64,000 nucleotides of DNA from Catellatospora paridis. Lineage in GTDB: Bacteria > Actinomycetota > Actinomycetes > Mycobacteriales > Micromonosporaceae. The first letter of the stretch is position 1. Each line of letters begins with the position of its first letter. The notes below the pieces were generated by a model, which was given only the letters and a program-made list of their open reading frames with translations, searched no databases and was not told the DNA's origin. Shown here in pieces: positions 21,462 to 57,431 of the stretch. The position numbers and the translations under genes are program-made. The stretch covers positions 124,001 to 188,000 of the forward strand of contig NZ_WBZD01000016.1 in assembly GCF_009720365.1 (NCBI RefSeq). Direction: 5' to 3'.

Positions 21462-21518
21462 TGATCATGAACTTATGGCACGGGTCACCGGAGTGTCATC
21501 GCCACAAGTTCATGATCA
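21462..21518. repeat. Dispersed palindromic repeat, family 2 copy A
   Basis: 13-bp perfect arms TGATCATGAACTT (21462-21474) and complement (21506-21518), extended by ATGGC/GCCAC. Located between cysteine desulfurase and mnmA, 38 bp from copy B. Confidence 0.75.
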
Positions 21519-21555
21519 CTTCTGCGGTCTGGTCGGACGGCGCCACACCCCTCGG

Positions 21556-21616
21556 TGATCATGAGGTTGTGGACATGACACGCCGTCGAGCCGTGCCATA
21601 CGTTCATGATCAACGC
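21556..21616. repeat. Dispersed palindromic repeat, family 2 copy B
   Basis: Arms TGATCATGAGGT (21556-21567) and the CGTTCATGATCA side (21601-21612) pair imperfectly. The loop and right side (ACACGCCGTCGAGCCGTGCC, then GTTCATGATCAACGCGG) are nearly identical to copy C at 57375-57436, which shows real sequence homology and not only shared palindromy. Confidence 0.75.
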
Positions 21617-21631
21617 GGAAGGGGGCGGCCG

Positions 21632-22795
21632 TCAGCGGGACATGCCGGCGCGGCGGGCGCGGTCGACGGCGGCGGGCAGGGCCGTGATGAGGGCGTCGAG
21701 GTCCGCGCGGGTGGTGGTGTGGCCGAGGGTGAAGCGCAGGGAGGAGCGGGCGGCGAGGGGGTCGGCGCCCATCTGGAGCAGGACGTGCGAGGGCTGGGCC
21801 ACACCGGCGGAGCAGGCCGAGCCGGTGGAGACGGCGATGTCCTGGGCGTCGAGCAGCAGCAGGAGAGCGTCGCCCTCGCAGCCGGGGAAGCCGAAGTGCG
21901 CGTTGCCGGGCAGGCGGGCACCGGGCTGGTCGGTCGGCGCGCCGTTGAGGACCGCGTCGGGGACCACGGCGCGCACCCTTTCGATCAGCTCGTCGCGCAG
22001 CGCGGCCAGCCGCTGGGCGTGCTGCTCCTGGTGCTTGACCGCGTGCTCGACGGCCACCGCGAAGGAGACGATCCCGGGCACGTCCAGCGTGCCGGAGCGT
22101 ACGTCGCGCTCCTGACCACCGCCGTGCAGCAGCGGGGTGCAGGCCACGTCGCGGCCCAGCACCAGCGCGCCGACGCCGAGCGGGCCGCCCAGCTTGTGCC
22201 CGGTGACGGTGAGCGCGGCGACGCCGCTCGCGGCGTAGTCCACCGGCACCTGGCCGACGGCCTGGACGGCGTCGGTGTGCAGCGGCACCCCGCGCGCCGC
22301 GGCCAGCGCGGCCAGCTCGGCGATCGGCTGGACCGTGCCGACCTCGTTGTTGGCCCACATGACGGTGACCAGCGCGACCGTGTCGTCCAGGGCCTCGGCC
22401 AGCGCCTCCGGCCGCACCCGGCCCTCGTGGTCGACCGGCAGCGAGACCACGTCGGCGCCCTCGTGCTCGCCCAGCCAGTGCACCGCGTCCAGCACCGCGT
22501 GGTGCTCGACGGCCCCGACCAGCACCTTCGTGCGTCCTTCCGGGCGGCGGGACCAGTAGACGCCCTTGATCGCGAGGTTGTCGCTCTCGGTGCCACCGCC
22601 CGTGAAGATCACTTCGGACGGACGTGCGCCCAGCACCGCGGCGATGCGCTCACGCGACTCCTCCACCCGGCGACGGGCAGCGCGGCCCGCGCCGTGCAAC
22701 GACGAGGCGTTGCCGACCTCACGGGCGGTCGCGACGTAGGCGTCCAGCGCCTCGGGCAGCATCGGCGTGGTCGCCGCATGATCAAGGTAGGCCAT
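21632..22795 (-). CDS. Cysteine desulfurase (IscS/NifS type)
   Basis: 387 residues. A PLP enzyme that removes sulfur from cysteine as a persulfide. The PLP lysine is in [13 protein letters not shown]; the catalytic Cys loop is [22 protein letters not shown]; the N-terminus [15 protein letters not shown] is typical. It probably feeds MnmA downstream. The start ATG is in a compact region with no alternative nearby. In actinomycetes this copy is usually dedicated to tRNA thiolation rather than Fe-S assembly, which is carried out by SUF. Confidence 0.94.
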
Positions 22796-22849
22796 CTCGC
22801 CGCCAAGCCTAGCCGCAAGGGTGCTTACCCGCGCCCCAGGTGTACGCGA

Positions 22850-22886
22850 GTGAGGGCCCGGCAGGGGGTTCCCGCCGGGCCCTCAC
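22850..22886. terminator. Terminator downstream of etfA
   Basis: Perfect 13-bp arms GTGAGGGCCCGGC (22850-22862) and complement (22874-22886), 12 bp after the etfA stop on the minus strand. It separates the etf operon from the desulfurase gene. Confidence 0.7.
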
Positions 22887-22898
22887 GAAGGCGTACGC

Positions 22899-23855
22899 CT
22901 AACGACGCTTGCGGATCTCCTCGGAGGCCTGCGGAACGACCTGGTTGAGGTCGCCCACCACACCGAAGTCGGCCAGCTCGAAGATCGGCGCCTCGGTGTC
23001 CTTGTTCACCGCGACGATGGTCTTCGAGGTCTGCATGCCGGCCCGGTGCTGGATCGCGCCCGAGATGCCCACCGCGATGTAGAGCTGCGGCGACACCGTC
23101 TTGCCGGTCTGCCCGACCTGGAAGGCGTGCGGGTAGAAGCCGGAGTCGGTGGCGGCGCGCGACGCGCCGACAGCCGCGCCGAGCAGGTCGGCCAGCTCTT
23201 CAATGATCTTGAAGTTCTCCGCCGACGCGACACCGCGGCCGCCGGACACGACGATCGACGCCTCGGTCAGCTCCGGGCGCGCGCCCTTGGCCTCGGCGAC
23301 GCGCTTGGTGACCACGGCCAGCTTGTCCGTGTCGGCGAGCGCGACCTCGACCGGCTCCATCGACGGCGAGGCCGCGGCGGGGCTGGGCGTGAGCGAGTTC
23401 GGCCGTACGGTGACCAGCGGCAGGCCCTTGGTGACCTTGGACTTCACGATGGTCGAGCCCGCGAAGGCGACCTGGGTGGCGGTGCCGTCGGCGGCCAGCT
23501 CGACCACGTCGGTGAGCACGCCGTTGTCCAGCTTGACCGCGAGCCGGCCCGCGATCTCCTTGCCCTCCTGGGTGGAGCCGATCAGCACGGCCGCCGGGGA
23601 GACGGCCTTGACCAGCTGCGCGAGCGCGGTGGCCTTGGGGGCGACCAGGTGCTCGTCGATCTCGGTGCTCTCGGCCGCGTAGACCTTCACCGCGCCGTAC
23701 TCGCCGAGCTTGTCGACGAGCGGGGCGGCCGTGCCGGGCGCGCCCAGCACCACCGCGGCGGGCTCGCCGAGCGAGCGCGCCAGGGTCAGCATCTCCAGCG
23801 TGACCTTCTTGACCGTGCCGCCGGAGGACTCGACGACTACCAGAACCTCAGCCAT
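22899..23855 (-). CDS. etfA: Electron transfer flavoprotein alpha subunit
   Basis: 318 residues. With EtfB it carries electrons from acyl-CoA dehydrogenases to the quinone pool. The C-terminal FAD-binding region is clear ([61 protein letters not shown]). ATG 23855 is chosen (MAEVLVVVE); an in-frame TTG three codons upstream is unlikely. It lies 14 bp after etfB. The operon fits the acyl-CoA metabolism genes elsewhere in the window. Confidence 0.96.
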
Positions 23856-23869
23856 TGTCGGCAAGCCTC

Positions 23870-24649
23870 TCAGACGAACTTCTCGGACGACAGGTAATCG
23901 ACCAGCGCGACGCCGCCCTCACCGGAGTCGGCGACCTTCTGGCCGGCGCTGCGCGCCGGGCGCTTGCTGTGCGACAGCACGGTGGTGGCGGCGCCCGCCC
24001 AGCCCACCTGGTCCGCGGCGACGCCGAGGTCGGCCAGCGACTTGGTGGCCACCGGCTTCTTCTTGGCGGCCATGATGCCCTTGAAGGACGGGTAACGCGG
24101 CTCGTTGATGGTGTCCCACACGCTGACGATCGCGGGGGTGGCGGCCGTGACGACCTCGTACCCCTCCTCGGTCTGGCGCTCGACGGTCAGCTGCGAGCCC
24201 TCGACGGTCAGCTTGCGCGCGCCGGTCAGCGCCGCGAAGCCGAGCCGCTCGGCCAGCATGTGCGGCATGACCTGGCCGCGGGCGTCGGTCGACTCCGCGC
24301 CGGAGATGACCAGGTCGGGGGCGAGTTCGCTGATCGCGGCGGCGAGCACCTTGCTGGTGCCCAGCGCGTCGGTGCCGGCGAGGGCATCGTCGATGACGTG
24401 CACGGCCCCGTCGGGGCCCATGGACAGCGCCTTGCGGATCGACTCGGCGGCCCGCTCCGGGCCCATGGTCAGCACGGTCACCTCACCGCCGTGCGCCTCC
24501 TGCAGCCGCAGCGCCTCCTCGATGGCGTACTCGTCCATCTCGTTGATGACGTTGTTGGCCGAGGCACGGTCGACGGTGTTGTCGTCCGCGCGCAGGTTGC
24601 GCTCGGCGCCGGAGTCCGGCACCTGCTTGACAAGTACGACGATCTTCAT
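23870..24649 (-). CDS. etfB: Electron transfer flavoprotein beta subunit
   Basis: 259 residues with the classical MKIVVLVKQVPDS start, an AMP-binding/recognition region (DEYAIEEALRL, VTVLTMGPERA) and GAESTDARGQVMPHMLAERLG. AGGAGGG precedes the ATG, which fixes the start over longer in-frame options. It is the first gene of etfBA; a 14-bp TTACT/AGTAA palindrome 127 bp upstream overlaps a possible -10. Confidence 0.95.
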   Translation of the reverse strand: MKIVVLVKQVPDSGAERNLRADDNTVDRASANNVINEMDEYAIEEALRLQEAHGGEVTVLTMGPERAAESIRKALSMGPDGAVHVIDDALAGTDALGTSKVLAAAISELAPDLVISGAESTDARGQVMPHMLAERLGFAALTGARKLTVEGSQLTVERQTEEGYEVVTAATPAIVSVWDTINEPRYPSFKGIMAAKKKPVATKSLADLGVAADQVGWAGAATTVLSHSKRPARSAGQKVADSGEGGVALVDYLSSEKFV

Positions 24650-24775
24650 CGCGCTCTGACGACCCTCCTGAGTTGAACGGACGTTCATGCCCTCGCCGCG
24701 AGCCTGTCGCCTGACACGTCGCGGGTCAAGTTCGACCGGCTGTGGACGTTGCCACTTTTGCCAGCCCGCCGCATG

Positions 24776-24789
24776 TTACTGACGAGTAA
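24776..24789. promoter_or_regulatory. Candidate TetR-type operator upstream of etfBA
   Basis: TTACTGACGAGTAA has 5-bp perfect arms around GACG. On the minus strand it overlaps TAACAT, a plausible -10 for etfB, with an AT-rich segment on the -35 side. It may also influence the small plus-strand gene at 24899. The regulator is not encoded nearby. Confidence 0.45.
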
Positions 24790-24898
24790 TTTATTGCTCC
24801 TGCTCGTCTACCCGCCAGGACGGCCGCCAATAGTGACAGAGCTCACCCCGCCATGGGGCCTACCGCGTAGAGTCACGCCTAGCAGGAGGTGTCATGAC

Positions 24899-25075
24899 AT
24901 GACCACGCAAACCGCACCCCTGCCGGGCCGCCCCACGACTGATCCGGGCCTCCCGCCCGAGGCGGAACACCACCGGCAACCCGAGCCAGACGAACACCTG
25001 TGCACCTGTGGCCGCCTACGCGACGACTGCGTCCGCGACACGATCCGCGATCTCTGGCACCCGGCCGACGCCTGA
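24899..25075 (+). CDS. Small Cys-containing protein of unknown function
   Basis: 58 residues with a Pro/Thr-rich N-terminus and a C-terminal segment HLCTCGRLRDDCVRDTIRDLW. The C-x-C and later Cys could bind a metal; I do not recognise a named family. AGGAGG at 24883-24888 and TAGAGT at 24868-24873 give a plausible promoter and ribosome site. A 2-codon ORF (ATG ACA TGA) at 24894 sits between the Shine-Dalgarno and the ATG and overlaps it. Convergent with a GNAT gene. It is likely a real short gene but unproven. Confidence 0.55.
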   Translation: MTTQTAPLPGRPTTDPGLPPEAEHHRQPEPDEHLCTCGRLRDDCVRDTIRDLWHPADA

Positions 25076-25101
25076 TCCGCCGCCTGGCGGCCTCGGTTTC
25101 C

Positions 25102-25169
25102 CATAGACGCCGGCCTATCCAGGTGACATTTCGACGATCGAAGTCATCCAGATAGGCCGACGTCTACAT
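25102..25169. repeat. Dispersed palindromic repeat, family 1 copy 2
   Basis: Arms CGGCCTATCCAGGTGAC (25111-25127) and GTCATCCAGATAGGCCG (25143-25159), three mismatches, plus outer TAGACG/CGTCTA pairs. It aligns with 6484-6552 over its whole length, including the loop (CGATCGAAGTCATCCAGATA) and flanking ATG-AAGCG. Located between convergent genes, as is copy 1. Confidence 0.8.
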
Positions 25170-25211
25170 GAAGCGCGTCGCGGCAGGCCGTCACCGCCCG
25201 GCGCGGAGTCG

Positions 25212-26018
25212 TCAGGCGGCGGGCGGCCGCCAGATGTACGGCGTGGTCGTGGTCACTGCGACCATGCCCAGCCGCTCCAGGATGGGGCGACTGTCCGCGG
25301 ACGCGTCCACCTGCAGGTACGTGAACCCGCGCTCGACCGCGCGGATCGCCCGGTGCGCCACCATGGCCTTGTAGATGCCGCGACCGCGCCACTGCTCCAG
25401 CGTCGACCCGCCCCACAGCCCCGCGAAGTCGGTCCCCTTCTCGTACCGGATCCAGCCGGCGCAGACCACCTCGCCATCGGCCTCGGCGACCACGATGGTC
25501 AGCCCCTGTGGGTCGGCGTCCAGCTCCTTGGCCAGGCCGTGCACCAGGTGACTGCGGTCCTCATTCCAGACCGCCTCCTCCATGGCCGCGATCCGCTCCA
25601 GGTCGGCCTGCGAGGTCACCTCGCGCAGCGTCACCCCGTCGGGCAGCACCGGAGCATTCGCCAGCGGGGCGGCCAGGCCGATGATCACCGTCTCCAGCTC
25701 GTCGGGTGCGAACCCGGCCGCGACCAGCCGGTCCGGCAGGTCGGCGGGCAGGTCGTGGCCGCGCAGCTTCCACTCGACCTCCTCGCCGCGGGCGGCGAAG
25801 TAGTCGCGCTGGCGCGCGATGAGGGCGTCCAGTTCGGGGCCGCTCAGCTGGGACACGTCGCGGTAGGTGACGAATCCGCCGCGGTCGAGCCCGCTCATCC
25901 GGACCACCGGGCCGTCCCATTCGACGACCATTCCGGCGGGCAGGGGGTCGGGGATCTCGGTACGCAGTTGCTCGTCGTACGCGCTGCGCAGGGCGTCGGC
26001 ATCAAGTTCAGAAGTCAT
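25212..26018 (-). CDS. GNAT-family N-acetyltransferase
   Basis: 268 residues. The GNAT domain occupies about residues 130-260, with VVCAGWIRYEKGTDFAGLWG strands, the acetyl-CoA loop WRGRGIYKAMVAHR and a final ADSRPILERLGM helix typical of the fold. The N-terminal 125 residues (Asp/Glu rich, ending EWKLRGHDLPADLPDRL) may be a divergent second lobe. The substrate is unknown. TAGTAT (26026-26031, complement) lies 7 nt before the ATG, giving a leaderless start only 18 bp from the divergent DUF202 gene. Confidence 0.85.
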   Translation of the reverse strand: MTSELDADALRSAYDEQLRTEIPDPLPAGMVVEWDGPVVRMSGLDRGGFVTYRDVSQLSGPELDALIARQRDYFAARGEEVEWKLRGHDLPADLPDRLVAAGFAPDELETVIIGLAAPLANAPVLPDGVTLREVTSQADLERIAAMEEAVWNEDRSHLVHGLAKELDADPQGLTIVVAEADGEVVCAGWIRYEKGTDFAGLWGGSTLEQWRGRGIYKAMVAHRAIRAVERGFTYLQVDASADSRPILERLGMVAVTTTTPYIWRPPAA

Positions 26019-26036
26019 CGCCTTGATACTAGGAAG
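26019..26036. promoter_or_regulatory. Overlapping divergent leaderless promoters
   Basis: The start codons at 26018 (minus) and 26037 (plus) are 18 bp apart. The centre reads GATACTA: TAGTAT on the minus strand is 7 nt from the GNAT ATG, and GATACT on the plus strand is 6 nt from the DUF202 GTG. The two -10 elements overlap, so firing should be mutually exclusive. Confidence 0.55.
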
Positions 26037-26429
26037 GTGCTGGCTAGAGTGCGCAACTGGTTTGATCCGCGCGAAGTTCATGAAACAGGGCAAACTCCTG
26101 ACTACCGTTTCTCGCTGGCCAACGAGCGCACCTTCCTCGCCTGGATCCGCACCGGCCTGGCCATGATCGGCGGCGGGCTGGTGGTGGCCCAGTTCCTGCC
26201 GCCGATGACGGTGCCGCACATGACGAAGATCCTCGGCGTGGCGCTGATCCTGCTCGGCGTGGGCTGCGCGCTGCGCGCCGTCGACCACTGGATCCGTTGC
26301 GAGATCGCGATGCGCAACGGCCGGCCGCTGCCACCGTCACGGTTCCCCGCGGTGCTCGCGATCGTCGTCGCGCTGGGCTCGCTGGCCCTGCTGGCCGAGG
26401 TCTTCGTCGACTGGTTCCGCAGCCGGTGA
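26037..26429 (+). CDS. DUF202 (YidH-type) membrane protein
   Basis: 130 residues from GTG. The N-terminal RFSLANERTFLAWIRTGLAM is the DUF202 hallmark, followed by three membrane helices (about 35-52, 62-80, 102-122). Function unknown; such proteins often occur as pairs, and a second one follows 28 bp downstream. The GTG is supported by the adjacent -10 and by the start of homology. Confidence 0.85.
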   Translation: MLARVRNWFDPREVHETGQTPDYRFSLANERTFLAWIRTGLAMIGGGLVVAQFLPPMTVPHMTKILGVALILLGVGCALRAVDHWIRCEIAMRNGRPLPPSRFPAVLAIVVALGSLALLAEVFVDWFRSR

Positions 26430-26457
26430 GCGGCTCGGCCGACCACGGCAAGCGGCC

Positions 26458-26766
26458 GTGAACACCCTCCCCGACCACGGCGCGCAGCCGGAACGCACCC
26501 GGCTGGCCTGGCGGCGCACCGTGCTGTCGGGCACGGCGTGCGCGCTGCTGCTGTTCCGGCTCGCGTTCACCCGCGGGCTGGACGACGCCGGGGCGTTGGC
26601 CCTCGCCCTGACGATGCTGTCCTGGCTGGCATTGCTGCTGGTCGCGCAGCGGCGGATCCGGGCCATGGAGCAGCAGCATCCGACCGGGGTCGCCCGGACG
26701 ATGGCCGCGGTCACCGTCTCCTGTGTCCTGATGGGCGTCCTGGGGGTACTCCTCATCCTCTGGTGA
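26458..26766 (+). CDS. DUF202-family membrane protein, second copy
   Basis: 102 residues from a GTG. PERTRLAWRRTVLSGTACAL is the diverged DUF202 N-terminal motif; three hydrophobic segments follow (about 24-42, 46-62, 80-101). It probably forms a hetero-pair with the preceding protein. No clear Shine-Dalgarno is seen, and the gene is likely translated from the shared transcript. Confidence 0.8.
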   Translation: MNTLPDHGAQPERTRLAWRRTVLSGTACALLLFRLAFTRGLDDAGALALALTMLSWLALLLVAQRRIRAMEQQHPTGVARTMAAVTVSCVLMGVLGVLLILW

Positions 26767-26783
26767 GGTCTACGCTCTACGCC

Positions 26784-27185
26784 GTGGGACGCCTGTGGAT
26801 GTTCATCTTCCTCGCCGAGCTCGTGCTGACCGTGGCTGCGCTGATCAGCTGCCTGTCCGCGGAGGAGCACCGCCTCAACGCGCTGCCGCGCTGGGGCTGG
26901 GTTCTGATCATCCTGCTGTTCTCGCCGATCGGGGCCATCGCCTGGTTCGTGGTGGGCCGCGAACGGACACCTGATCCGAAGGTGTGGCGGCAGGGCAGCG
27001 GCTTCCCCGAGCAACAGCGCCCGGGGCGCGGGCTCGCCCCCGACGACGACCCGGAGTTCCTGCGCCGGCTCGCCAAGGAGCAGCGGGAGACCGCCGCCGC
27101 CGACCGCGAGCTGCTCAGCAAGTGGGAGATGGACCTGCGCCGCCGCGAAGAGGAGCTGCGCAAGCAGGACAAGGCCGACGACTAG
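26784..27185 (+). CDS. PLDc_N-domain membrane protein
   Basis: 133 residues. Two membrane helices (LWMFIFLAELVLTVAALISC and RWGWVLIILLFSPIGAIAWF) form the phospholipase D/cardiolipin synthase N-terminal-type domain; no catalytic HKD domain is present. A charged coiled-coil tail (residues 90-130, rich in R/E/K) follows. TACGCT lies 7 nt before the GTG. The stop codon TAG overlaps the TAG of the convergent GH1 gene within CTAG, so there is no room for a terminator between them. Confidence 0.82.
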   Translation: MGRLWMFIFLAELVLTVAALISCLSAEEHRLNALPRWGWVLIILLFSPIGAIAWFVVGRERTPDPKVWRQGSGFPEQQRPGRGLAPDDDPEFLRRLAKEQRETAAADRELLSKWEMDLRRREEELRKQDKADD

Positions 27186-28567
27186 GCGCGCTCGCGCAGC
27201 CGCCGCGCGAGCCAGCGGAAGGACTCCTTGGGCGTACGCCGCTGCGTCGGGTAGTCGACGTGCACCAGCCCGAAGCGCTGGCTGTACCCGGCCGCCCACT
27301 CGAAGTTGTCGAGCAGGCTCCACACGAAGTAGCCGCGCAGGTCGAGCCCGTCCGCCCGCTTGCGCAGCGCCACCGCGAGATGCTCGCGCAGGTAGTCCAC
27401 GCGCCGCGGGTCGGGCACCGAGCCGTCCGGGGCGACCTCGTCGGGGAAGCTGGCCCCGCCCTCGGTGATGTACACCGGCGGCAGCCGGTCACCGTAGCGT
27501 TCGGACAGTTCGTCGAGGGTGTCGCCGAGCCCGGCCGGGCTGACCGGCCAGCCGAAGCCGGTCCGCGGCACGCCCTCGATCTCCGCGAAGGCGAACGGCA
27601 GCTCGCCGACCCGCGCGAAGTCGCCCTCGGGCGTGTGGTCGGTGGCCGCGTCCGGATCCGCCATGCCGACCCGGCTCGGGTAGTAGTAGTTGACGCCGTA
27701 GAAGTCCAGCGGTGAGCTGATCACGGCGAGGTCCGCGGCGGGCACGGCGGCGAACGCCCCGAACAGCTCCGTGAACGGCTCCGGGGCCTGCGGATACCGG
27801 CCGAGCAGCACCGGGTCCTCGAAGAACCGGTTGGCGATCAGGTCGTAGAGGGCGGCGGCGAGCTGGTCCTCGGAGCGGTCCGAGGCCGGCACGACGGGCG
27901 TGTGCACGTTGGTGATGCCGATCTGCCCGGCCACTCCGGCGGCGCGCAGTGCCTGCACCGCAAGGCCATGGCCGAGCAGCTGGTGGTGCGCGGCGGGCAG
28001 CGCGTCGAACAGCAGCGCGTGGCCCGGGGCGTGCGCGCCGGTGGCGTAGCCGGCCAGGGTCACCGAGTGCGGCTCGTTGATGGTGATCCACTTGCCGACC
28101 CGGTCGCCGAGGCGCGCGCCCATCAGGGCGGCGTACTCGCCGAAGCGTTCGGCGGTGTCACGCGACAGCCAGCCGCCCGCGTCCTCCAGGGCCTGCGGGG
28201 AGTCCCAGTGGAACAGGGTGGCCACCGGCTCGATGCCGCGGGCCAGCATCGCGTCGACGAGCCGGTCGTAGAACGCCAGTCCGTCCGGGTTGGCCGGTCC
28301 GCTGCCGTCGGGCTGGATGCGCGGCCATGCGACGGAGAAGCGATACGCGTCGGCGCCGAGCTCGCGTACCAGGTCAAGGTCCTGCTCGTAGCGGTGGTAG
28401 TGGTCGCAGGCGACCGCACCGGTGTCGCCGCCGAGCACCCGGCCGGGCTGCGCACAGAACGTGTCCCATACCGACACCCCGCGCCCGCCCTCGGCCACCG
28501 CACCCTCGATCTGGTACGCGGCGGTGGCGACCCCGAGCTGGAAATCCCTAGGAATACTGGGGTCCAT
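27182..28567 (-). CDS. Glycoside hydrolase family 1 beta-glucosidase
   Basis: 461 residues, normal GH1 length. Hydrolyses beta-glucosides or related beta-glycosides by a retaining mechanism. The N-terminal signature FQLGVATAAYQIEGAVAEGG, the acid/base in TINEPH (Glu165) and the nucleophile in YITEGG (Glu369; most relatives have ITENG) are all present. No signal peptide is seen, so it acts in the cytoplasm on imported sugar, consistent with the MFS transporter that heads the operon. Its ATG overlaps the preceding stop codon by one base (TGATG). Confidence 0.95.
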   Translation of the reverse strand: MDPSIPRDFQLGVATAAYQIEGAVAEGGRGVSVWDTFCAQPGRVLGGDTGAVACDHYHRYEQDLDLVRELGADAYRFSVAWPRIQPDGSGPANPDGLAFYDRLVDAMLARGIEPVATLFHWDSPQALEDAGGWLSRDTAERFGEYAALMGARLGDRVGKWITINEPHSVTLAGYATGAHAPGHALLFDALPAAHHQLLGHGLAVQALRAAGVAGQIGITNVHTPVVPASDRSEDQLAAALYDLIANRFFEDPVLLGRYPQAPEPFTELFGAFAAVPAADLAVISSPLDFYGVNYYYPSRVGMADPDAATDHTPEGDFARVGELPFAFAEIEGVPRTGFGWPVSPAGLGDTLDELSERYGDRLPPVYITEGGASFPDEVAPDGSVPDPRRVDYLREHLAVALRKRADGLDLRGYFVWSLLDNFEWAAGYSQRFGLVHVDYPTQRRTPKESFRWLARRLRERA

Positions 28568-29877: not shown

Positions 29878-29933
29878 AGTGCCACCGTCAGTTCGCGACT
29901 GCGGGACTCGCAAGCTCGTTCCTCGCTGCTCAC
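29874..29933 (-). CDS. 19-codon linker ORF between PLP enzyme and lactone oxidase
   Basis: Starts at a GTG overlapping the stop of the PLP-enzyme gene (GTGA) and ends at a TGA overlapping the GTG of the oxidase gene (GTGA). The peptide would be VSSEERACESRSRELTVAL. It may serve to keep ribosomes moving between the two genes (translational coupling) rather than make a functional peptide. A similar arrangement exists at 42867-42896. No evidence of conservation is available from this window. Confidence 0.4.
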   Translation of the reverse strand: MSSEERACESRSRELTVAL

Positions 29934-32460: not shown

Positions 32461-32611
32461 GGGGGGTCCCTCGGGCCAGGTGTGATTCCCGTCGCGCGGA
32501 GTTTAGAGAACTTTTCATGTTTGCACCAGGACTGCCACCCGGACAGATGAAGCAGCGTGTCACCCCACGGGGTCTGGTGTGAATGTGAAAGATTCTCTAG
32601 GCTGCGCCGCC

Positions 32612-34672: not shown

Positions 34673-34691
34673 CCGGCGGCCGCCTCAACGA

Positions 34692-34737: not shown

Positions 34738-34746
34738 CGACTTTTG

Positions 34747-45121: not shown

Positions 45122-45179
45122 GGTGCGTCATCCTAGAGTTCGGCGTGCAGCAACACCGGTATCGGCGCGCGCTGGCTTT

Positions 45180-45237: not shown

Positions 45238-45323
45238 TACGCGCACAAAACCACTATGGATGGCAAGACCCGACACACTGGCCGAAGGGCCCACCACCAA
45301 GTCGGGTCGAAGCGGAGGACACC

Positions 45324-46772: not shown

Positions 46773-46822
46773 CCGGCGTCACGTCCCTCCGGACTGGACT
46801 GCCGGTCCGGCTCGATGGCAGT

Positions 46823-46857
46823 ATTCATGCTCACGCATCTAATGCGTGAGCATGAAT
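46823..46857. promoter_or_regulatory. Perfect 16-bp palindrome ahead of flavin reductase
   Basis: ATTCATGCTCACGCAT (46823-46838) and its exact complement (46842-46857) are separated by CTA. It ends 23 bp before the GTG start, within the promoter or leader. Length and perfection suggest a dimeric repressor operator; a transcript hairpin is also possible. Confidence 0.6.
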
Positions 46858-46880
46858 CATTTCCGACGGGAGAACCGGCC

Positions 46881-47441: not shown

Positions 47442-47456
47442 CCCGCACCTCGAGAC

Positions 47457-47535
47457 CGCGACGATCTTGCGCGAGCTGTTGGGGATACGCCCTGTTCGGG
47501 CGTGTCATCCCCACAGTCCACGCAAGATCGTCGCG
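47457..47535. repeat. Long nested intergenic palindrome, ACGATCTTG type
   Basis: Perfect 15-bp outer arms CGCGACGATCTTGCG (47457-47471) and complement (47521-47535). Inside is a second stem with GGGGAT/ATCCCC and ACGCCC/GGGCGT around TGTTC. In total 79 bp between convergent stops. The ACGATCTTG core recurs as a half-element at about 59527-59535. Confidence 0.75.
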
Positions 47536-47543
47536 ACGGCGGG

Positions 47544-50500: not shown

Positions 50501-52562
50501 CGCGCACCTCGGCCAGGTCCCGCGCGCCCGCGGGCAACTGCAGGCCGAAGTCGTACACGAACACGGTCGCGTCGTCGCGGCGCACCTCGTACGGCCGCTC
50601 GTCGGTGACCCGCACGCCCAGCGAGTGCAGCACCGGCAGCACCGCCGACAGCAGCATCGGCTCGCCGTGCCGGTACACCTTGAACCGCACGTCGTTGCCG
50701 GGCGTGGTGGCCTCGACCACGCTGCCCGAGCCGGCCGTGAAGCGCCGCCGGAACAGGTGCATCTCCAGCTGGCCGGGCTCGTCCAGCAGCTCCAGCTTGG
50801 CCAGGTCCTGCGCGCCCTCGTACGGGAGGTGCCCGTCCTTGTACGTCTCCGGCAGCGCGTCGGTGTACCGCGCGGCCAGCAGCTTGGCCTGCTCGTCGCC
50901 GACCTTGCGCTCCAGCACCAGCCGGAAGTCGTCGTCCCAGTTGCGGGTGGCGTCGCCCAGCATCTCGGCCAGCGCGTCGGCGTCGACCTCGCCGGGCGGG
51001 TCGTTGGGGTCGGTGCGCACGATGAAGTGGATCCGCGCCAGGTTGGACTCGCTGACCCGGGTGGTGTAGTCGACGCCGACGCCGTTCAGCTCGCGCAGCA
51101 GGATGTCCTGCATGGCCAGCCGGTGCGCGGTGGTGAACCGGTCCCGCGGCAGGTAGATCAGGCAGGAGATGAACCGGCCGTAGCCGTCCCGGCGCAGGAA
51201 CAGCCGCAGCTGGCGGCGGCCCGCCATGCGCAGCACCCCGGTCACGGCCTGGTACAGGTCGTCGGTGCTGATCTGGAACAGCTCGTCGCGCGGGTAGGTC
51301 TCCAGGATCTCCAGCAGGTCCTTGCCGGAGTGGCTGCGCGCGGACAGGCCGGAGCGCTCCAGCACGTTGTCCACCTTGCGGCGGATCACCGGCAGGTCCC
51401 GCACGCTGGTGCGGTAGGCCGCCGACGAGAACAGGCCGAGGAAACGGCGCTCGCCGACGACGTTGCCGTCGGTGTCGAACATCTTGAAGCCGATGTAGTC
51501 CAGGTAGGCCGAGCGGTGCACGGTGGCCCGCGAGTTCGCCTTGGTGATCACCAGCAGGCGCTTCTCCAGCGCCTTCTGCTGCGCCTCCGGCGTCATCGAC
51601 TCCAGCGTGCGGGCGGTGGACTCGTCGCCGCGCAGGATGCCCAGACCGGTGCCGGGCACGGCCCGCATCAGGTCGGTCTCCGACCCGGCCGCGCCGGGCA
51701 CGTGGATCAGCTCGTACTCGCGGTAGCCGAGGAAGGTGAAGTGGTGGTCGGCCAGCCAGCGCAGCAGGTCCACCGAGTCGGTGATGTCGCGGTCGGGCAC
51801 GGGCAGCTCGGCCCCGGAGATCTCGTCGGCCAGCGCGAGCGCCTGCGCCCGCATCCGCGGCCAGTCCTCCACCGCCCGGCGTACGTCGCCGAGCACCCGT
51901 TCCAGGTCGGCCCGCAGGCCCGCCAGCTCCGCCTCGTCGCGGATGGCGCCGACCTCGATCCGCATCCAGCTCTCGACCAGGTCGCCGGCGATGGCGTCGT
52001 CCGGCTCGACGTCGGCGCAGACCTCGGTCAGGTCGCCCTGCTCGTCGCGGCGCACCACCATCACCGGGTGCACCAGCAGTTGCACGTCCTTACGCGCGGA
52101 CAGCGCCGCGGTGACCGAGTCGACCAGGAACGGCATGTCGTCGGTGACGACCTCCACGACGGTGTGGCGCGGTTCCTGGGACAGCGACAGGCGCAGTTTC
52201 AGCTCGCCGGGCATCCGCGACGCGGCCAGCTGCCGGTGCGCGCGGGCGGCCTCGACCAGGCGGGCCGGGGTCAGGTCGACGAGTTCCTCGTCCGGGGCGA
52301 ACCGCCAGTACCGCTGCACCAGCTGCGCCTCGGCCAGCCGGTCGTCGGACAGGCTCGGGGTGTCGGGGCTGCCGCCGGCGGCCAGCGCGACCGCGGCCGC
52401 GATCAGGCGCTCGCCGTTGGGCAGCGGCTCGTCGAGATCGCTGTCGTCCAGGTCGTCCGGGTGCGCCTGAGGCAGACCCTCATTCCTGATGGTGTCGCCG
52501 CTCGCACCGGCTTCGACCTCGGCGGAAGCGCTGCCGCCGACGATTGCGCCGCCAGACTCCAT
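47544..52562 (-). CDS. NAD-specific glutamate dehydrogenase, large (GDH-180 type)
   Basis: 1672 residues, the expected size for the large hexameric NAD-GDH of actinomycetes. It oxidatively deaminates glutamate to 2-oxoglutarate. The N-terminal 700 residues are the regulatory ACT-like part. The catalytic core around residues 790-1250 includes GGLRWSDRRDDFRTEVLGLVK, KNAVIVPVGAKGGFV, GVGDMSGDVFGNGML and DHRHIFLDPNPD. A C-terminal helical domain follows. ATG 52562 is preferred, with GGGGAG about nine bases upstream. The reverse strand carries a long open frame that is an artefact of GC bias. Confidence 0.95.
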   Translation of the reverse strand: MESGGAIVGGSASAEVEAGASGDTIRNEGLPQAHPDDLDDSDLDEPLPNGERLIAAAVALAAGGSPDTPSLSDDRLAEAQLVQRYWRFAPDEELVDLTPARLVEAARAHRQLAASRMPGELKLRLSLSQEPRHTVVEVVTDDMPFLVDSVTAALSARKDVQLLVHPVMVVRRDEQGDLTEVCADVEPDDAIAGDLVESWMRIEVGAIRDEAELAGLRADLERVLGDVRRAVEDWPRMRAQALALADEISGAELPVPDRDITDSVDLLRWLADHHFTFLGYREYELIHVPGAAGSETDLMRAVPGTGLGILRGDESTARTLESMTPEAQQKALEKRLLVITKANSRATVHRSAYLDYIGFKMFDTDGNVVGERRFLGLFSSAAYRTSVRDLPVIRRKVDNVLERSGLSARSHSGKDLLEILETYPRDELFQISTDDLYQAVTGVLRMAGRRQLRLFLRRDGYGRFISCLIYLPRDRFTTAHRLAMQDILLRELNGVGVDYTTRVSESNLARIHFIVRTDPNDPPGEVDADALAEMLGDATRNWDDDFRLVLERKVGDEQAKLLAARYTDALPETYKDGHLPYEGAQDLAKLELLDEPGQLEMHLFRRRFTAGSGSVVEATTPGNDVRFKVYRHGEPMLLSAVLPVLHSLGVRVTDERPYEVRRDDATVFVYDFGLQLPAGARDLAEVRAHVENAFAAAWRGEAEVDGFNELVLRAGLTWRQVVVLRAYAKYLRQAGTVFAQESMEATFTAYPQIAAMLVALFETRFNPKLQLSDAERSSQAKELISAIGRQLESVSSLDQDRILRNYLTLMQATLRTSFFQKAADGRPKSYIAFKLDPQAIPDLPAPRPKFEIFVYSPRFEGVHLRFGAVARGGLRWSDRRDDFRTEVLGLVKAQMVKNAVIVPVGAKGGFVLKQAPAAGDRDALQAEGVACYKRFISALLDITDNLDAGKIVPPADVVRHDGDDPYLVVAADKGTATFSDIANEISASYGFWLGDAFASGGSAGYDHKGMGITARGAWESVKRHFRDLGQDTQTEDFTVVGVGDMSGDVFGNGMLLSEHIRLVAAFDHRHIFLDPNPDPAASFAERARMFALPRSSWADYDTTLVSEGGGVHPRTAKSIPVTPQVRAALGLADTVTAMSPAELMKAILLAPVDLLWNGGIGTYVKATTESHAEVGDKANDAIRVNGGHLRARVVGEGGNLGLTQAGRIEYARRGAQGAGGRIFTDFIDNTAGVDCSDHEVNIKILLGADADLTLEARNQLLASMTDEVAALVLRDNYGQATALGNARAQTLSLLPVHRRLITELERSGRLDRALEGLPTDEELLSRAENGEGLSTPEFAVLMAYVKIALEEEIVHSDLPDDAWTAQTMADYFPTPLHGMSRQMAEHRLRREIVTTVLVNETVNRGGITFVHRTVEETGASAADVLRAFEIVWEVFDLPALWAAVEATDNRVPTAAQTAVYLKARRLMDRAVRWLIQNRRSPLDVPGEIARLKPGVSALAPRMKEMFLGAEREGIAEHEAELVGLGAPQDLAEWGARTLYSFALLDVVEVASATGRDLDEVAGVYFVLSERFRVDELLTKISMLPRDDRWQTLARMALRYDLYAALAALTGEVLAASPSGTPQERVTQWEQRNAATIAQARKSIAELEGIKADLAPLSVLLRQIRTLVRTAAA

Positions 52563-52765
52563 GAAAAGCCACTCCCCTTCGCCCACCGCGCTGTGGGTCG
52601 TTGGTGGGACGGGCCGTTGCAGGGGCCGTCCCGTCGTCGACCCCAGCCTAGTCAGCACCCCCGGCCAGGCACTCGTTCGGGGGCCGCCCACATGGGCGAC
52701 GCTCAAGTCCGGTGCCGGACAGCGCTGATGCCACACCGGCGCTGCCGTTACGGCAGAATGCCCGC

Positions 52766-54694
52766 ATGGCTCTGCGCTCGAAGGTACGCCGTCCCAAGAT
52801 TGTCCTCTCTCTGGTGGCGATGTCGCTGCTGTTCCCCGCACTTGCCGCCTGCTCGAAGGACGACGGCCCCGAGCCCATGCTCGACGCGTTCCTGACCGGC
52901 TGGCGCACGGGGACCTACGACAAGGTCACTTTCGTCAGCCCGACCGGCCAGGGTGTCGCCGCCGACACGGTCAAGACCGAGCTGCGGGCGCTGGAGGGCG
53001 TCTTCCGGGACACTCCTCCGACGCTGACCAAGCAGGCCCCGGCGGTGAACCAGGGCCTGGCGACCACCCAGATCAAGGTCGCCCAGCCGCTGCCGGACAA
53101 GACCGTCTGGGAGTACACGACCACGGTCCGGATGACCAAGGCCAAGGACAACTGGCAGGTCGTCTGGGAGCCGGCGATCGTGCACGAGAAGCTGACCAAG
53201 GGCGACGAGCTGGCCGTACGCCGGCTGGCCCCGGCCCGTGCCGGCGTCTTCGACGGCACCGGCGCGGAGATCGTCCGGCCCCGGCCGGTCGTCGTCATCG
53301 GCATCGAGCCGCAGAAGGTGAAGGACATCGACGCGCTGGTCAAGGAGCTGACCACGATCTTCACGTCGGGGGCGTACGACGTCAGCAAGGACGACCTGGC
53401 CAAACTGCCCGCCCGGGTGAAGGAGGCCAAGCCCGACGCCCTGGTCGAGATCGTGACCCTGCGCCGGGAGATCTACGAGCCGATCCGGGACCGCCTGCGC
53501 GCGCTGATGGACCGGGGAGTGCAGTTCCGTGAGGAGGAGTGGCTGCTCTCGCCGACCCGTACGTTCGCGCGGGCGCTGCTCGGCACGGTCGGGCCGGTCA
53601 CCAAGGAGATCATGGACAGCAAGCCCGGGGCCTACCAGGTGGGCGACCAGGCCGGTCTCGGCGGCATCCAGCGCACCTACGACGACCGGCTGCGCGGCAC
53701 CGCCGGCGTGAGCGTGGTCTCCAGCCGCAAGGCCTCCGACGGCACCGTCCAGGACACCCCGCTCTACACCGTCGAGGACAAGGACGGCCAGAAGCTCCAG
53801 CTCGCCATCGACCAGAAGGCCCAGATCGCGGCCGAGAAGGCGCTCGCCGCGGTCAAGCAGCGCAGCGCGATGGTGGCGATCCGGATCAGCGACGGCCGGC
53901 TCGTCGCGGTGGCCAACAGCGGCGCGGACAACCTCGCCTTCACCGCGCAGGTCCCGCCGGGCTCGACCTTCAAGGCCGTGTCCGCGTACGGCCTGCTCGA
54001 CGCCGGCAAGGTGACCGCGAACCAGATCGTGCCGTGCCCGAAGTTCCTCACCGTCGAGGGCCGCCAGTTCAAGAACTCGAACTTCCTGGAACTCGGCAAC
54101 GTCCCGTTCCACACGGACTTCGCGAAGTCCTGCAACACCGCGTTCGCCTCGCTGGCCCCGCAGCTGGGCCCCGACGGCCTGCTCAACGCCGGCACCGCAC
54201 TGGGCCTGGGCCAGACCTGGGACCTGGGCGTGCCCGCCTTCACCGGCCGGGTCTCCGCGGGCGGCACTGCCACCGAACTGGCCGCGGCCACCTTCGGCCA
54301 GGGCCAGACCATCGTCAGCCCGGTCGCCATGGCCGGCGTCGCCGCCGCGATCGCCCGCGGCCAGTGGAAGCAGCCGGTCCTGCTGCTCGACCCCGCCCCA
54401 GCCAAGCCCGCCGCCGACGGCCCGGCCCTCAAGCCGACCACCGTCGACCCGCTGCGCGCGATGATGCGCGAGGTCGTCACCGTCGGCACCGCCACCGCCC
54501 TTAAGGACGTCCCCGGCGGCGCGGTCTTCGGCAAGACCGGCACCGCCGAGTACGACGACAACCCCGCGCACACCCACGCCTGGTTCATCGGCTGGCAGGG
54601 CGACATCGCCTTCGCCGTCTTCGTCGAGGACGGCATCAAACCCAGCGAAACCGCCGTCCCCGTGTCCGCCGCCTTCCTCCGCAACCTCCGCTGA
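52766..54694 (+). CDS. Penicillin-binding protein 2-like lipoprotein
   Basis: 642 residues. A lipoprotein signal (LLFPALAAC, Cys29) leads to an NTF2-like MecA N-terminal domain (about 35-150), a dimerisation domain and a transpeptidase domain with all three motifs: STFK (Ser400), SCN (Ser455) and KTG (Lys590). It cross-links peptidoglycan outside the membrane. The combination resembles MecA/PBP2a-like class B enzymes of actinomycetes; MecA_N does not by itself imply beta-lactam resistance. CAGAAT lies 6 nt before the ATG. Divergent from NAD-GDH across 203 bp. Confidence 0.93.
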   Translation: MALRSKVRRPKIVLSLVAMSLLFPALAACSKDDGPEPMLDAFLTGWRTGTYDKVTFVSPTGQGVAADTVKTELRALEGVFRDTPPTLTKQAPAVNQGLATTQIKVAQPLPDKTVWEYTTTVRMTKAKDNWQVVWEPAIVHEKLTKGDELAVRRLAPARAGVFDGTGAEIVRPRPVVVIGIEPQKVKDIDALVKELTTIFTSGAYDVSKDDLAKLPARVKEAKPDALVEIVTLRREIYEPIRDRLRALMDRGVQFREEEWLLSPTRTFARALLGTVGPVTKEIMDSKPGAYQVGDQAGLGGIQRTYDDRLRGTAGVSVVSSRKASDGTVQDTPLYTVEDKDGQKLQLAIDQKAQIAAEKALAAVKQRSAMVAIRISDGRLVAVANSGADNLAFTAQVPPGSTFKAVSAYGLLDAGKVTANQIVPCPKFLTVEGRQFKNSNFLELGNVPFHTDFAKSCNTAFASLAPQLGPDGLLNAGTALGLGQTWDLGVPAFTGRVSAGGTATELAAATFGQGQTIVSPVAMAGVAAAIARGQWKQPVLLLDPAPAKPAADGPALKPTTVDPLRAMMREVVTVGTATALKDVPGGAVFGKTGTAEYDDNPAHTHAWFIGWQGDIAFAVFVEDGIKPSETAVPVSAAFLRNLR

Positions 54695-54714
54695 CCCGCC
54701 CCGCCGCGCGGCGG

Positions 54715-55908
54715 TCAGGGGCGGAGTCTGGCGGCGAGGGTGACCAGGTGGTCCACGGTGAGGCGGGATACCAGGGGGCCGGTTACGCGCAGGGTCACGG
54801 TGCCGGTGGCGGCGGTGTAGACGCGGACCGTGCGTGTCGTCGCGTCGTCGCGGACCGTCACCCTGCTGCCGTCGCCGCGCACGGTGCAGGAGGTGTCGCC
54901 AGGTCCCGGGCAGGGCGGCGGCGCCGGGCAGGTGGGGCCGGAACAGGCCGGGGTCACCTCGACCGACACCGAACCCTCGTCCGCGACGGTCACCGACGTC
55001 CGGTAGCCGGTTTCCGCTGAACCCTGCACCGGGGACGACGCGAACTCCTGGTCCGGGAACTTCTGGCGCAACAGCAACGTGAACAGGCCGACCAGATCCT
55101 CCACCGCCGCGTCCCTGGTCGGGCGTGCGCTGGGCGAGCGGCCCGGGAACAGGGACAGCCCAGGAGCCTCCGCGATGTCGACGAGCTGCGCCATGGTCAG
55201 CGGCGGCACCGCGCCGGGCGGCCGGGTCTCCCCCGCCACCCCGGGCACGCCGACCGCGACCATGACCCGCGTCCCGTCCGCCCGGTGCGCCTCCACCTGG
55301 CGGGTGTCGGCGTAGTCGGTCACGAACACCACGGCCCCGGTCGCGTGGACCTCGTACGAGCAGCCGCGGCCGACCGAGCCCTCCGGGCACACCTGCACCG
55401 CGCTGGGCGGATCCTCGGTCAGCTCCGAGACCACCACGTGCAGCAGACCGCGACCGCCGGGGCCGGACAGGTGCACGTCGGCCTCGTACTGCGCGTAGCG
55501 CGGCTGGTACACGAAGGCGATCCCGGCGAACGGGCCCGTGGCCCGGTCCGGGGCGGTCACCGCGAGCACGTCCCGCAGCGCCGCCGACAGCCGCGCCACC
55601 GTGGCGGCGCACTCCTGCGCGGACGGCGCGGCGGGCAGCGTCGCGCCGTCGGACGGCACCTCGGTCGGGTTCGGGCTGGGCGTCGGGCACGCGGCGCCGC
55701 CGAGCCCTGAGGTGAGTCCCGTGCCGCCGGCGTACAGCGCGGGCACCGCCAGCAGCGCGGCGACCAGCACGGCGGCTCCCGCGCTCGCGCCGCTCCAGCG
55801 CAGCAGGCGGGTGCGCCGCTGCTCCCGGGCGATGAAGGAGTCGAGATCGATGCGGCTGGGCGGCGCGTCGTCGGTCGCGGCGCGCAGCTGTTCGGGCAGG
55901 TCGTTCAT
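54715..55908 (-). CDS. Single-pass membrane protein partnered with ECF sigma factor
   Basis: 397 residues. A short cytoplasmic N-terminus (MNDLPEQLRAATDDAPPSRI; FIAREQRRTRLLRW) precedes one membrane helix (about 41-60), then a long exported region rich in Thr/Val with a CPTPSPNPTE linker and a Cys-rich stretch (CSGPTCPAPPPC ... CT). It follows the sigma gene by 3 bp. As in 1672-3087 there is no zinc anti-sigma motif. Likely a sensor/anchor for the sigma factor; the role is inference. Confidence 0.75.
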   Translation of the reverse strand: MNDLPEQLRAATDDAPPSRIDLDSFIAREQRRTRLLRWSGASAGAAVLVAALLAVPALYAGGTGLTSGLGGAACPTPSPNPTEVPSDGATLPAAPSAQECAATVARLSAALRDVLAVTAPDRATGPFAGIAFVYQPRYAQYEADVHLSGPGGRGLLHVVVSELTEDPPSAVQVCPEGSVGRGCSYEVHATGAVVFVTDYADTRQVEAHRADGTRVMVAVGVPGVAGETRPPGAVPPLTMAQLVDIAEAPGLSLFPGRSPSARPTRDAAVEDLVGLFTLLLRQKFPDQEFASSPVQGSAETGYRTSVTVADEGSVSVEVTPACSGPTCPAPPPCPGPGDTSCTVRGDGSRVTVRDDATTRTVRVYTAATGTVTLRVTGPLVSRLTVDHLVTLAARLRP

Positions 55909-55911
55909 GGG

Positions 55912-56421
55912 TCAGGCCTCCTCTGCGACAAGCTCGGCACCCTGCAGGCGCGCGCGCAGCGCCTCCAGGGCCCGGGACGTCTGGCTCTTGACGGTGCCGG
56001 TGGAGCAGCCGAGTTCCGCCGCCGTCTGTTCGACCGACAGGTCGCAGAAGTACCGCAGCACGAGCACGGCCCGGCGGCGTGCCGGCAGTTCGGCGAGCAG
56101 GGCGACGACGGCCAGCCGGTCGGCGACGCCGTCGGCGCCCGGCTCGGTCGAGGCCCGTTCGGGCAGCACGTCGAGGACGCGTTCGCGGCGCCACGGTCGG
56201 CGGCGCTCGTTGAGCATCGCCCGCAGCATCGAGGTACGTACGTAGGCGTCGGGATTCTCCATCCGCGACACCCGGTCCCAGTGGCGGTAGAGCCCGGTCA
56301 GCGCGGTCGACACCATGTCGTCCGCGAGGAACCAGTCACCGCTGAGCAGGTACGCCGTGCGCCGCCACTTCTCCAGGCGGCCCGCCGTGTACTCGCGGAA
56401 CCCCTCGACGTCCTTCGCCAT
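55912..56421 (-). CDS. SigE-family ECF RNA polymerase sigma factor
   Basis: 169 residues. Region 2 (FREYTAGRLEKWRRTAYLLSGD, ADDMVSTALTGLYRHW, PDAYVRTSML) and region 4 (LPARRRAVLVLRYFCDLSVEQTAAELGCSTGTVKSQTSRALEALR, quoted here in parts of the HTH ELGCSTGTVKSQTSRALEAL) match the same short ECF group as 3084-3590. It is transcribed just ahead of its membrane partner (3-bp gap). The DNA-binding helix is intact. Confidence 0.92.
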   Translation of the reverse strand: MAKDVEGFREYTAGRLEKWRRTAYLLSGDWFLADDMVSTALTGLYRHWDRVSRMENPDAYVRTSMLRAMLNERRRPWRRERVLDVLPERASTEPGADGVADRLAVVALLAELPARRRAVLVLRYFCDLSVEQTAAELGCSTGTVKSQTSRALEALRARLQGAELVAEEA

Positions 56422-56478
56422 CGCGCCCCCTCGCTCCGCCCCTTGAACACGGGCCGGCGGGTGCGGGGTTGCCCGGTC

Positions 56479-56880
56479 TCAGGATGCGGTGACGGGAGCC
56501 TTGCGGCGCAGCCAGATCAGGCCGAGCACGGGCAGCACGAGCGGCAGGTAGCCATACCCCTCGCCGAAGCCGGACCAGACGGTGGCGTCCGGGAAGTCCT
56601 GCGGCTGGAGCACGCTGAGCGTGCCGACGGCGAGCACGCCGACCAGTTCGACGGTGAAGCAGGCCTGCGCCAGCCGGCGGCCGCCCGCGTCGCCGCGCAC
56701 CAGGCCCACGGTGGCCACGATGTAGAGCACCGCGGCCAGCGCGCTGAGCAGGTACGAGACCGGGGCCTCGCCGAACTTCATGATGATCTGCACGGTCGCG
56801 CGGCACGTCGCGGCGACGGCGAACAGGCCGTACACGAAGACGAGGACGCGACCGAGCCCCGTGTTGACCGGCTTAGGCAC
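56479..56880 (-). CDS. Small four-helix membrane protein
   Basis: 133 residues, GTG start, with four hydrophobic segments (about 10-28, 41-62, 72-90, 107-124). No family recognised with confidence. It overlaps the end of the upstream membrane gene by 8 bp (GTGCCTAA), so the two are translated together and probably form a complex or act in one process. It ends 57 bp from the sigma start. Confidence 0.65.
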   Translation of the reverse strand: MPKPVNTGLGRVLVFVYGLFAVAATCRATVQIIMKFGEAPVSYLLSALAAVLYIVATVGLVRGDAGGRRLAQACFTVELVGVLAVGTLSVLQPQDFPDATVWSGFGEGYGYLPLVLPVLGLIWLRRKAPVTAS

Positions 56881-57229
56881 CGAACACCTGCCCGATGCGC
56901 AGCACGAGCACGGGCACGATGAGCGCGGCCACCCCGATGATCACGCTGCCGAAGCGGGTGGGCTCCATCTTGCCGACGATCCAGGCGCCCGCGGGCAGGA
57001 GCACCATCGTCAGGGCGTACCCGAGGAAGGTCGTGGTCTCCCGCGGCGAGTGACCGCCGATCCAGCTCGCCACCGCCGCGCCCACCAGCACCACCGCGGC
57101 GATGCTGACCACGACGGTGCCGATCAGCTGCACGCGGTCCGGGGCTCGGTCGCGCGCCGCCGCCAGCAGGGCGAGCGCGGCCAGCAGCAGGGCGACGACG
57201 GTCGTCGCGGTGGAGAGCACAGCGGGCAT
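56873..57229 (-). CDS. Small membrane protein, operon partner
   Basis: 118 residues with four hydrophobic segments (about 5-25, 35-55, 72-90, 97-115). ATG 57229 is chosen; TAGGGT (57237-57242, complement) lies 7 nt upstream, giving a leaderless start, and the longer in-frame extension has no membrane-protein character. No enzymatic motif. It is translationally coupled to the next gene by an 8-bp overlap. Confidence 0.68.
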   Translation of the reverse strand: MPAVLSTATTVVALLLAALALLAAARDRAPDRVQLIGTVVVSIAAVVLVGAAVASWIGGHSPRETTTFLGYALTMVLLPAGAWIVGKMEPTRFGSVIIGVAALIVPVLVLRIGQVFGA

Positions 57230-57374
57230 GGGGGCCACCCTAACCGCCGGGGCCGTTCCCGCCGCGCGCACCTCCGCCCCGGGTAGCCCACACCACCACC
57301 GCGCCACCCCGGCCTGCCGCCGGACAGCGCGCCCGGCGACGGCGGGCCGCCGCGGCCGAGCCGCCCTCCCCAGA

Positions 57375-57431
57375 TGATCATGAGGTTATGGCAGCGACAC
57401 GCCGTCGAGCCGTGCCATAAGTTCATGATCA
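57375..57431. repeat. Dispersed palindromic repeat, family 2 copy C
   Basis: 19-bp arms TGATCATGAGGTTATGGCA (57375-57393) and complement (57413-57431) with two mismatches. Loop and right arm match copy B at 21556-21616 over more than 40 bp. It sits between minus-strand genes, upstream of the small membrane operon and downstream of the arginase-family gene. Confidence 0.8.

Follow-up and report, generated by a model that had tools for sequence, protein, structure and literature searches.

A family of oriented 57-bp palindromes near gene ends in Catellatospora paridis and its relatives

Introduction

Recurrent palindromes near gene ends have been described in several bacteria, and we compare with them here an imperfect palindrome of 57 bp that occurs three times (copies A, B and C) in a 64,000-nucleotide stretch of the Catellatospora paridis genome (positions 124,001 to 188,000 of contig NZ_WBZD01000016.1; hereafter the window). 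Repetitive extragenic palindromic (REP) sequences of the GTAG and CGTC superfamilies, as described in the available part of the source, measure 20-40 (or 20-50) nt and carry an unpaired GTAG or CGTC at one foot of the palindrome (PMC3733652). Like REP, BIME and REPIN sequences, the 57-bp family consists of dispersed extragenic palindromes of high copy number that stand singly or as inverted doublets. However, it differs from them in its size (57 bp against 20-50), the absence of a GTAG/CGTC tag and of any RAYT found flanked by elements, its actinomycetotal host, and its strong vertical conservation. Miniature inverted-repeat transposable elements (MITEs) are short and non-coding, with inverted repeats at their ends. 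The 57-bp family shares these features, but no partner transposase was found for it, and it is constrained like functional DNA.

Other relatives in kind are the stem-loop families Ype, Efa and Bor, which, as far as the accessible text of their description goes, are recurrent palindromes with suggested effects on mRNA stability, Ype and Efa with a preference for positions 3' of genes (PMC1590033). The 57-bp family has other sequences and hosts, a fixed length and an oriented, half-conserved structure. The Bradyrhizobium element GAATCCAT(N)23ATGGATTC (52 copies, 47 of them intergenic) also lies near 3' ends and has a long gap between its arms, but it differs in sequence and phylum, and its sites are not compared between species in the portion available (PMC5217627). 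Closest in presumed function are the U-less ('I-shaped') terminators of GC-rich actinobacteria, stable hairpins behind the stop codon; in Streptomyces clavuligerus, 353 of 1,427 mapped 3' ends are stable hairpins with fewer than three U (PMC8269248). The accessible sections of these reports describe no repeated sequence family among them, whereas the 57-bp element has a 19-nt loop and a fixed length (PMC8269248, PMC12207403).

Strong U-tracts are rare in GC-rich actinobacteria, which leaves their gene-end signals poorly defined. The 57-bp family offers countable natural sites for tests of transcript ends: its length is fixed, its orientation to the stop codon is known and its constraint can be measured. 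While the general kind, hairpin repeats at gene ends, is known, no title or beginning of an abstract that we searched describes the 57-bp family itself, most subscription journals lying outside the coverage.

Results

The original prediction, made from the window alone, had described three dispersed palindromes and regarded a lack of further copies as evidence against a family. A strict pattern retrieved 39 copies from the 8.97-Mb genome, all exactly 57 bp long with 43-73 bp permitted. A profile of the conserved 36-bp half identified 84 half-elements in 418 kb and none in the reversed-sequence control; as these 418 kb were stretches picked for holding copies, 84 is neither a density nor a complete count. 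The strict pattern was present in all 11 Catellatospora genomes examined (G000-G010), with 1-60 copies each. Order-wide, 63 of 397 genomes matched it, in part at other lengths and, in a few cases, perhaps by chance. Among the matches listed, most belong to Micromonospora, the rest to Verrucosispora, Catellatospora, Hamadaea, Allorhizocola and a few others; in 12 genomes of genus g2 (inferred to be Micromonospora), 48 of 58 listed copies measure 57 bp, again with 43-73 bp permitted. Perfect conservation across distant genera, which had been named as a sign of a fixed regulatory role, was not encountered: Micromonospora keeps the 57-bp design with different arm and loop sequences. Covariance-model matches (28-148 per genome) do not serve as copy numbers here: the palindrome is hit on either strand, and scoring was limited to 150 candidates in each genome.

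Read on the strand that carries ACACGCC, the element has an invariant 9-bp end, then an inner arm, a loop of 19 nt and, on the right, a half that is strongly conserved; the invariance of the 9-bp ends follows from the choice of the search pattern. In this genome, 70 of the 84 half-elements have a G-G mismatch in the stem at pair 11-47, and 69 of 84 are followed by AC on the conserved side, the only side with a conserved flank. Copies from related genera keep the 57-bp design and the 19-bp arms by compensatory changes, and their arm positions show several pair types each. The stem is nearly perfect in 84 copies from outside Catellatospora: 86% of the cells at arm pairs 10-19 hold Watson-Crick pairs, and 16-37% do so once the partner is shifted by 1-3 positions; over all 95 copies, 799 of 950 cells are paired, compared to 584 +/- 10.5 after shuffling. 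The middle of these 95 copies is ACACGCC in 45, GATCTCC in 22, AGCGCT in four and of another type in 24.

The family sits behind gene ends generally, between convergent as well as co-directional genes. With genes called by a purpose-written codon-score caller (402 genes), both neighbours could be called for 71 single copies, of which 25 lie in convergent, 42 in co-directional and 4 in divergent gaps. The conserved half points toward a stop codon in 58 of the 71, at a median distance of 20 nt, and toward a start codon in 13 (median 116 nt). This place shortly behind a stop codon, together with arms that covary in relatives and a sense strand that folds at a mean of -23.9 kcal/mol, is as expected of a 3'-end hairpin without a U-tract. 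In the co-directional gaps alone, orientation agrees with the stop-codon rule in 33 and opposes it in 9 (p 0.0003). At named loci, Catellatospora included, 72 copies divide into 40 convergent, 31 co-directional and 1 divergent, while the 364 gaps of more than 60 bp at the same loci are 84 convergent, 186 co-directional and 94 divergent; the median distances there are 29 nt to the stop and 124 nt to the start. The earlier statement that the copies lie between co-directional genes holds for A/B and C, all four adjoining genes being on the minus strand, but not for the family, in which 25 of 71 single copies lie between convergent genes.

For the comparison with the sister species G002, both flanks could be placed for 43 of 79 units, of which 37 were scored present, 4 absent and 2 partial. 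We use 36 occupied sites of 43, since C3:240713 was scored present by misalignment over a different palindrome, one that exceeds all 100 shuffles. At 30 usable single sites shared with G002, substitutions amount to 0.060 in the element, 0.119 in the intergenic flank and 0.058 in the coding flank, and gap openings per bp to 0.0047, 0.0511 and 0.0140, respectively. Compared to intergenic flanks, the element thus has half the substitutions and about one tenth of the indels. By eye, orthologous copies in G002 also have copy-specific variants in common. These comparisons indicate that, at the compared sites, most copies are old, vertically kept and under purifying selection rather than freshly scattered mobile DNA. 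The family is dispersed, as had been claimed, but a recent scattering does not agree with the age and constraint of most compared copies: mobile-looking by copy number, it behaves like selected, vertically inherited DNA.

Both presence and absence occur at orthologous gaps within the genus, as a strain comparison suggested earlier was meant to reveal. The A/B gap holds the same doublet in G002 and G010, a diverged form in G001, G006, G008 and G009, one single copy in G005, none in G003, and other sequence in G004 and G007. The C gap holds one copy in G000, G010, G005, G003, G004, G001 and G006; the element is absent in G002, and G007-G009 have other sequence. In the element-free A/B gap of G003 no obvious target duplication was seen by eye, the flanks being of low complexity, and the element-free G002 sites are not clean.

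Another palindrome can take the same site as a 57-bp element. A different palindrome in the same gap exceeds all 100 shuffles at A/B in G004 and at C in G007 and G008, while a palindrome visible by eye at C3:637287 in G002 is matched in its best inverted repeat by 7 of 100 shuffles. Where a gap of the 418 kb lacks the 57-bp element, strong inverted repeats were seen in 19 of the 30 convergent gaps, in 26 of the 103 co-directional ones and in 0 of the 54 divergent ones (none in a control of one block shuffle per gap), and several of these repeats recur as families by eye. A second family, AGATCGCT...AGCGATCT, is present in 10 of 11 genus genomes, at 0-37 copies per genome over all 11 (e.g. G000:C9:315442-315505); nearly all among the matches listed measure 63 bp, and the arms covary by eye. 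The 57-bp family is therefore one of several recurrent gene-end palindromes.

All 5 neighbouring pairs closer than 120 bp (profile, 418 kb) are inverted doublets with the conserved halves outward, A/B included, and thus have two units of opposite orientation in a fixed arrangement, as in a REPIN; 74 of the 79 units are single. Similar doublets occur in other Catellatospora genomes, and a sixth, C4:558275, was found by a looser pattern only. The two side-by-side copies noticed originally are real, but that picture was incomplete in that A/B is one case of a recurrent inverted doublet. Singles do not appear to be decayed doublets, as a second half inside is not in general overrepresented among 73 of them (median profile score -19.4 on the inner and -14.3 on the outer side); the two top inner scores, 6.7 and 2.4, surpass every outer score. 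A cargo transposon was also considered, since conserved halves face outward round genes in 9 of 13 non-doublet neighbouring pairs closer than 4 kb, and was rejected, as by eye the genes in between resemble normal chromosomal ones. One small gene lies between two outward-facing copies (G000:C3:664925-665514), and the gene and both copies are missing in G002.

Positions in the window are collected in Table 1. The palindromes were found where they had been predicted, with identical 9-bp ends (TGATCATGA / TCATGATCA) in all three, each exactly 57 bp long, and the doublet indeed lies between genes with cysteine desulfurase-type and mnmA-type domains. Chance alone would give 0.13 occurrences of TCATGATCA in the window; there are 7, a number reached in 0 of 100 shuffles. 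Six of these are termini of the three copies; the seventh, at 307-315, is solitary and outside any 57-bp pair. As claimed, B and C are near-identical across 36 kb: they differ at 6 of 57 positions and have an uninterrupted 24-bp core in common. Copy A is oriented opposite to both. Searches for a known RNA family at A/B and C gave one sub-threshold microRNA match each, far under the gathering score.

Table 1. Features of the window around the 57-bp palindromes (coordinates count from the first base of the window)
Feature	Position	Strand	Basis	Remark
Copy A, 57-bp imperfect palindrome	21462..21518	-	profile, 77.0 bits on -	conserved half 21462-21497, pointing left to the mnmA 5' end
Spacer of the A/B inverted doublet, 37 bp	21519..21555	.	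sequence	
Copy B, 57 bp	21556..21612	+	profile, 74.8 bits	conserved half 21577-21612, 19 nt to the stop codon of the cysteine desulfurase gene
Inverted doublet A-B, 151 bp	21462..21612	.	profile calls	conserved halves outermost
Copy C, 57 bp	57375..57431	+	profile, 86.9 bits	conserved half 57396-57431, 17 nt to the stop codon of the arginase-family gene
mnmA-type gene	20346..21425	-	PF03054, PF20259, PF20258	
Class-V aminotransferase, consistent with cysteine desulfurase	21632..22795	-	PF00266	
Arginase-family gene	57449..58450	-		PF00491
Small open frame, no Pfam match	56873..57307	-		downstream neighbour of copy C

Discussion

Our analysis identified a repeat that is fixed in length, foldable, mostly oriented to stop codons, for the greater part vertically kept at the compared sites, and constrained in both sequence and length. 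We propose, with a probability of about 0.5, that the copies are old, vertically kept 3'-end hairpins, either terminators or protectors of mRNA ends without a U-tract, with a REP-like initial spread. A REP-like process may have copied the element around an ancestral genome; copies that landed just behind genes would have been retained and would now act at transcript ends. There, the transcript would fold into a long hairpin that stops RNA polymerase without a U-tract; alternatively, the hairpin would protect a 3' end left by Rho or nucleases. In either case the hairpin would separate neighbouring transcription units. Since a different palindrome can occupy the same gap in related species, the other palindrome families of these genomes probably have the same job.

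Several observations weigh against the proposal of 3'-end hairpins. Copy A faces the mnmA start, B and C alone following the stop-codon rule in the window, and 9 of 42 co-directional copies are likewise turned the other way. No canonical intrinsic terminator (GC-rich stem with U-tract) was scored at A/B and C, the only sites tested for it. The 19-nt loop is longer than the optimum of 4-8 nt given for E. coli terminators in the accessible text of PMC8269248. The fold is also stronger on the other strand, with mean energies of -23.9 kcal/mol in mRNA sense and -26.1 kcal/mol in antisense, the latter being the more stable in 60 of 84. Strand-revealing mismatches (114 GT vs 41 AC) favour G-T on the non-sense strand. 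No palindrome above the shuffles was found in the A/B gap of G003 and G007, in the C gap of G002 and G009, or in the element-free G002 gaps C3:664925, C4:277444 and C7:181375, which argues that a palindrome is not indispensable there. In addition, the fixed 57 bp and the sequence-conserved half go beyond the needs of a hairpin and would allow for a reader at the DNA level. As a test of the acting strand, the wobble signal is clear in Catellatospora, yet common by descent, and weak in other genera: G-T prevails in 14 and A-C in 5 of 36 ACACGCC sequences there (17 ties), while 22 GATCTCC sequences contain 4 G-T and 8 A-C cells. Where co-directional neighbours occur at named loci, the strand with ACACGCC is antisense to them in 12 cases and sense in 7, too few to tell.

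A broader reading, which we consider rather unlikely, would be that Micromonosporaceae use an interchangeable set of gene-end palindrome families of fixed length, such as the 57-bp family and the 63-bp AGATCGCT...AGCGATCT family, several of the set with GATC near the foot; their stems would change by compensatory mutation, and they would replace one another at the same gene ends. As the strand antisense to the adjacent gene folds better, such families may act mainly against antisense transcription or read-through from the neighbour, or as DNA, and not as ordinary mRNA terminators.

A different account takes the copies for REP- or REPIN-like non-autonomous mobile palindromes, moved in the form of single-strand hairpins by a tyrosine (HUH) transposase, with gene ends merely tolerating insertion. 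The many near-identical copies and the inverted doublets of fixed outward orientation, of which there are more in relatives, agree with it, and the one-sided AC flank and the G-G mismatch recall the tags and stem irregularities of REPs in the available portion of PMC8266576. However, GTAG, CGTC or their complements (CTAC, GACG) stand next to either end in 0 of 84, and most compared sites are present in the sister species too and change at about the low rate of the coding DNA next to them. Of the 11 genomes, 6 have matches to Y1_Tnp (PF01797), at 9 places in total (frames of 91-234 aa; two with a stop and one short), among them G000:C15:42896-43135 and G005:C22:41173-41535, but none is flanked by 57-bp palindromes or has a full half-element at its locus, and the copy-rich G010 has no match. 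One palindrome copy in G000 (C15:44612) starts about 1.5 kb from the short Y1 match, on one side only, and is cut by the locus end. Phage and plasmid collections contained no match to a 76-base query around copy C at E 1e-5, which speaks against this account as well, and spread by phages or plasmids was rejected on the same result. Without the tag, the REP size and a flanked RAYT, the family is not filed as REP. We consider this account rather unlikely; REP-like mobility may nevertheless explain the past spread.

The element could also be a double-stranded binding site, marking gene ends for a nucleoid or roadblock protein or for gyrase, with its length spacing the two TGATCATGA ends; gyrase has been proposed to bind BIMEs. 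The strict length here and in genus g2, the invariant ends (subject to the pattern choice noted above), the sequence-conserved 36-bp half and the weaker hairpin of the sense-strand RNA all fit such a site. Copies of 67-68 bp from a different family within the order exceed the usual length by roughly one helical turn and fit it as well, but copies of 51-52 bp, also from another family, do not suit helical spacing. The covariation of arm positions 10-19 as hairpin pairs is unneeded for a dyad site, unless dyad-reading proteins are specific to subfamilies, and we regard a binding site as possible but improbable.

Neutral relics of a dead repeat family, alike by descent only, would explain the mostly retained G002 orthologues and their common variants, which do imply that the copies are old. 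The clustering of strict copies in G002 may be read in the same way: 36 of 39 lie within 1.40-5.78 Mb of the 8.9-Mb contig C1, with few in the remainder. Relics should not evolve with half the substitutions and about one tenth of the indels of flanking intergenic DNA, though, and this explanation appears very unlikely. Uptake signals are mostly single and lie also inside genes. That the paired TGATCATGA ends are DNA uptake sequences serving as terminator stems, as the accessible text of PMC5217627 reports for uptake-signal pairs in Haemophilus influenzae, fits their inverted pairing behind genes but hardly deserves credence, with 6 of the 7 9-mers in the window bound in 57-bp pairs and one single.

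Further palindromes were noticed at gene ends. In G004 the 57-bp model has 28 matches, far below the 100-148 of each of the other ten genomes (both strands, best 150 candidates per genome), but the 63-bp family numbers 25 copies there, as though one had replaced the other. Another palindrome recurs behind genes at 6463-6573 and 25104-25166 of the window and at G000:C7:122130, C27:62234 and C26:23504; its arms resemble ATAGACGTTGGCCTATCTGGATGAC, its loop measures 15-21 nt, and it is perhaps the palindrome that the original prediction had set apart as family 1. A long-loop palindrome, GACGATCTTGCG...CGCAAGATCGTC, recurs in convergent gaps (window 47457-47535; G000:C4:278619). Others with GATC near the foot (CCATGATCTGTTTTCG..., TGATCACTCGAC..., CTTGATCGCTCGAC...) stand at gene ends at 16434-16503 of the window and at G000:C21:2328 and C3:61256.

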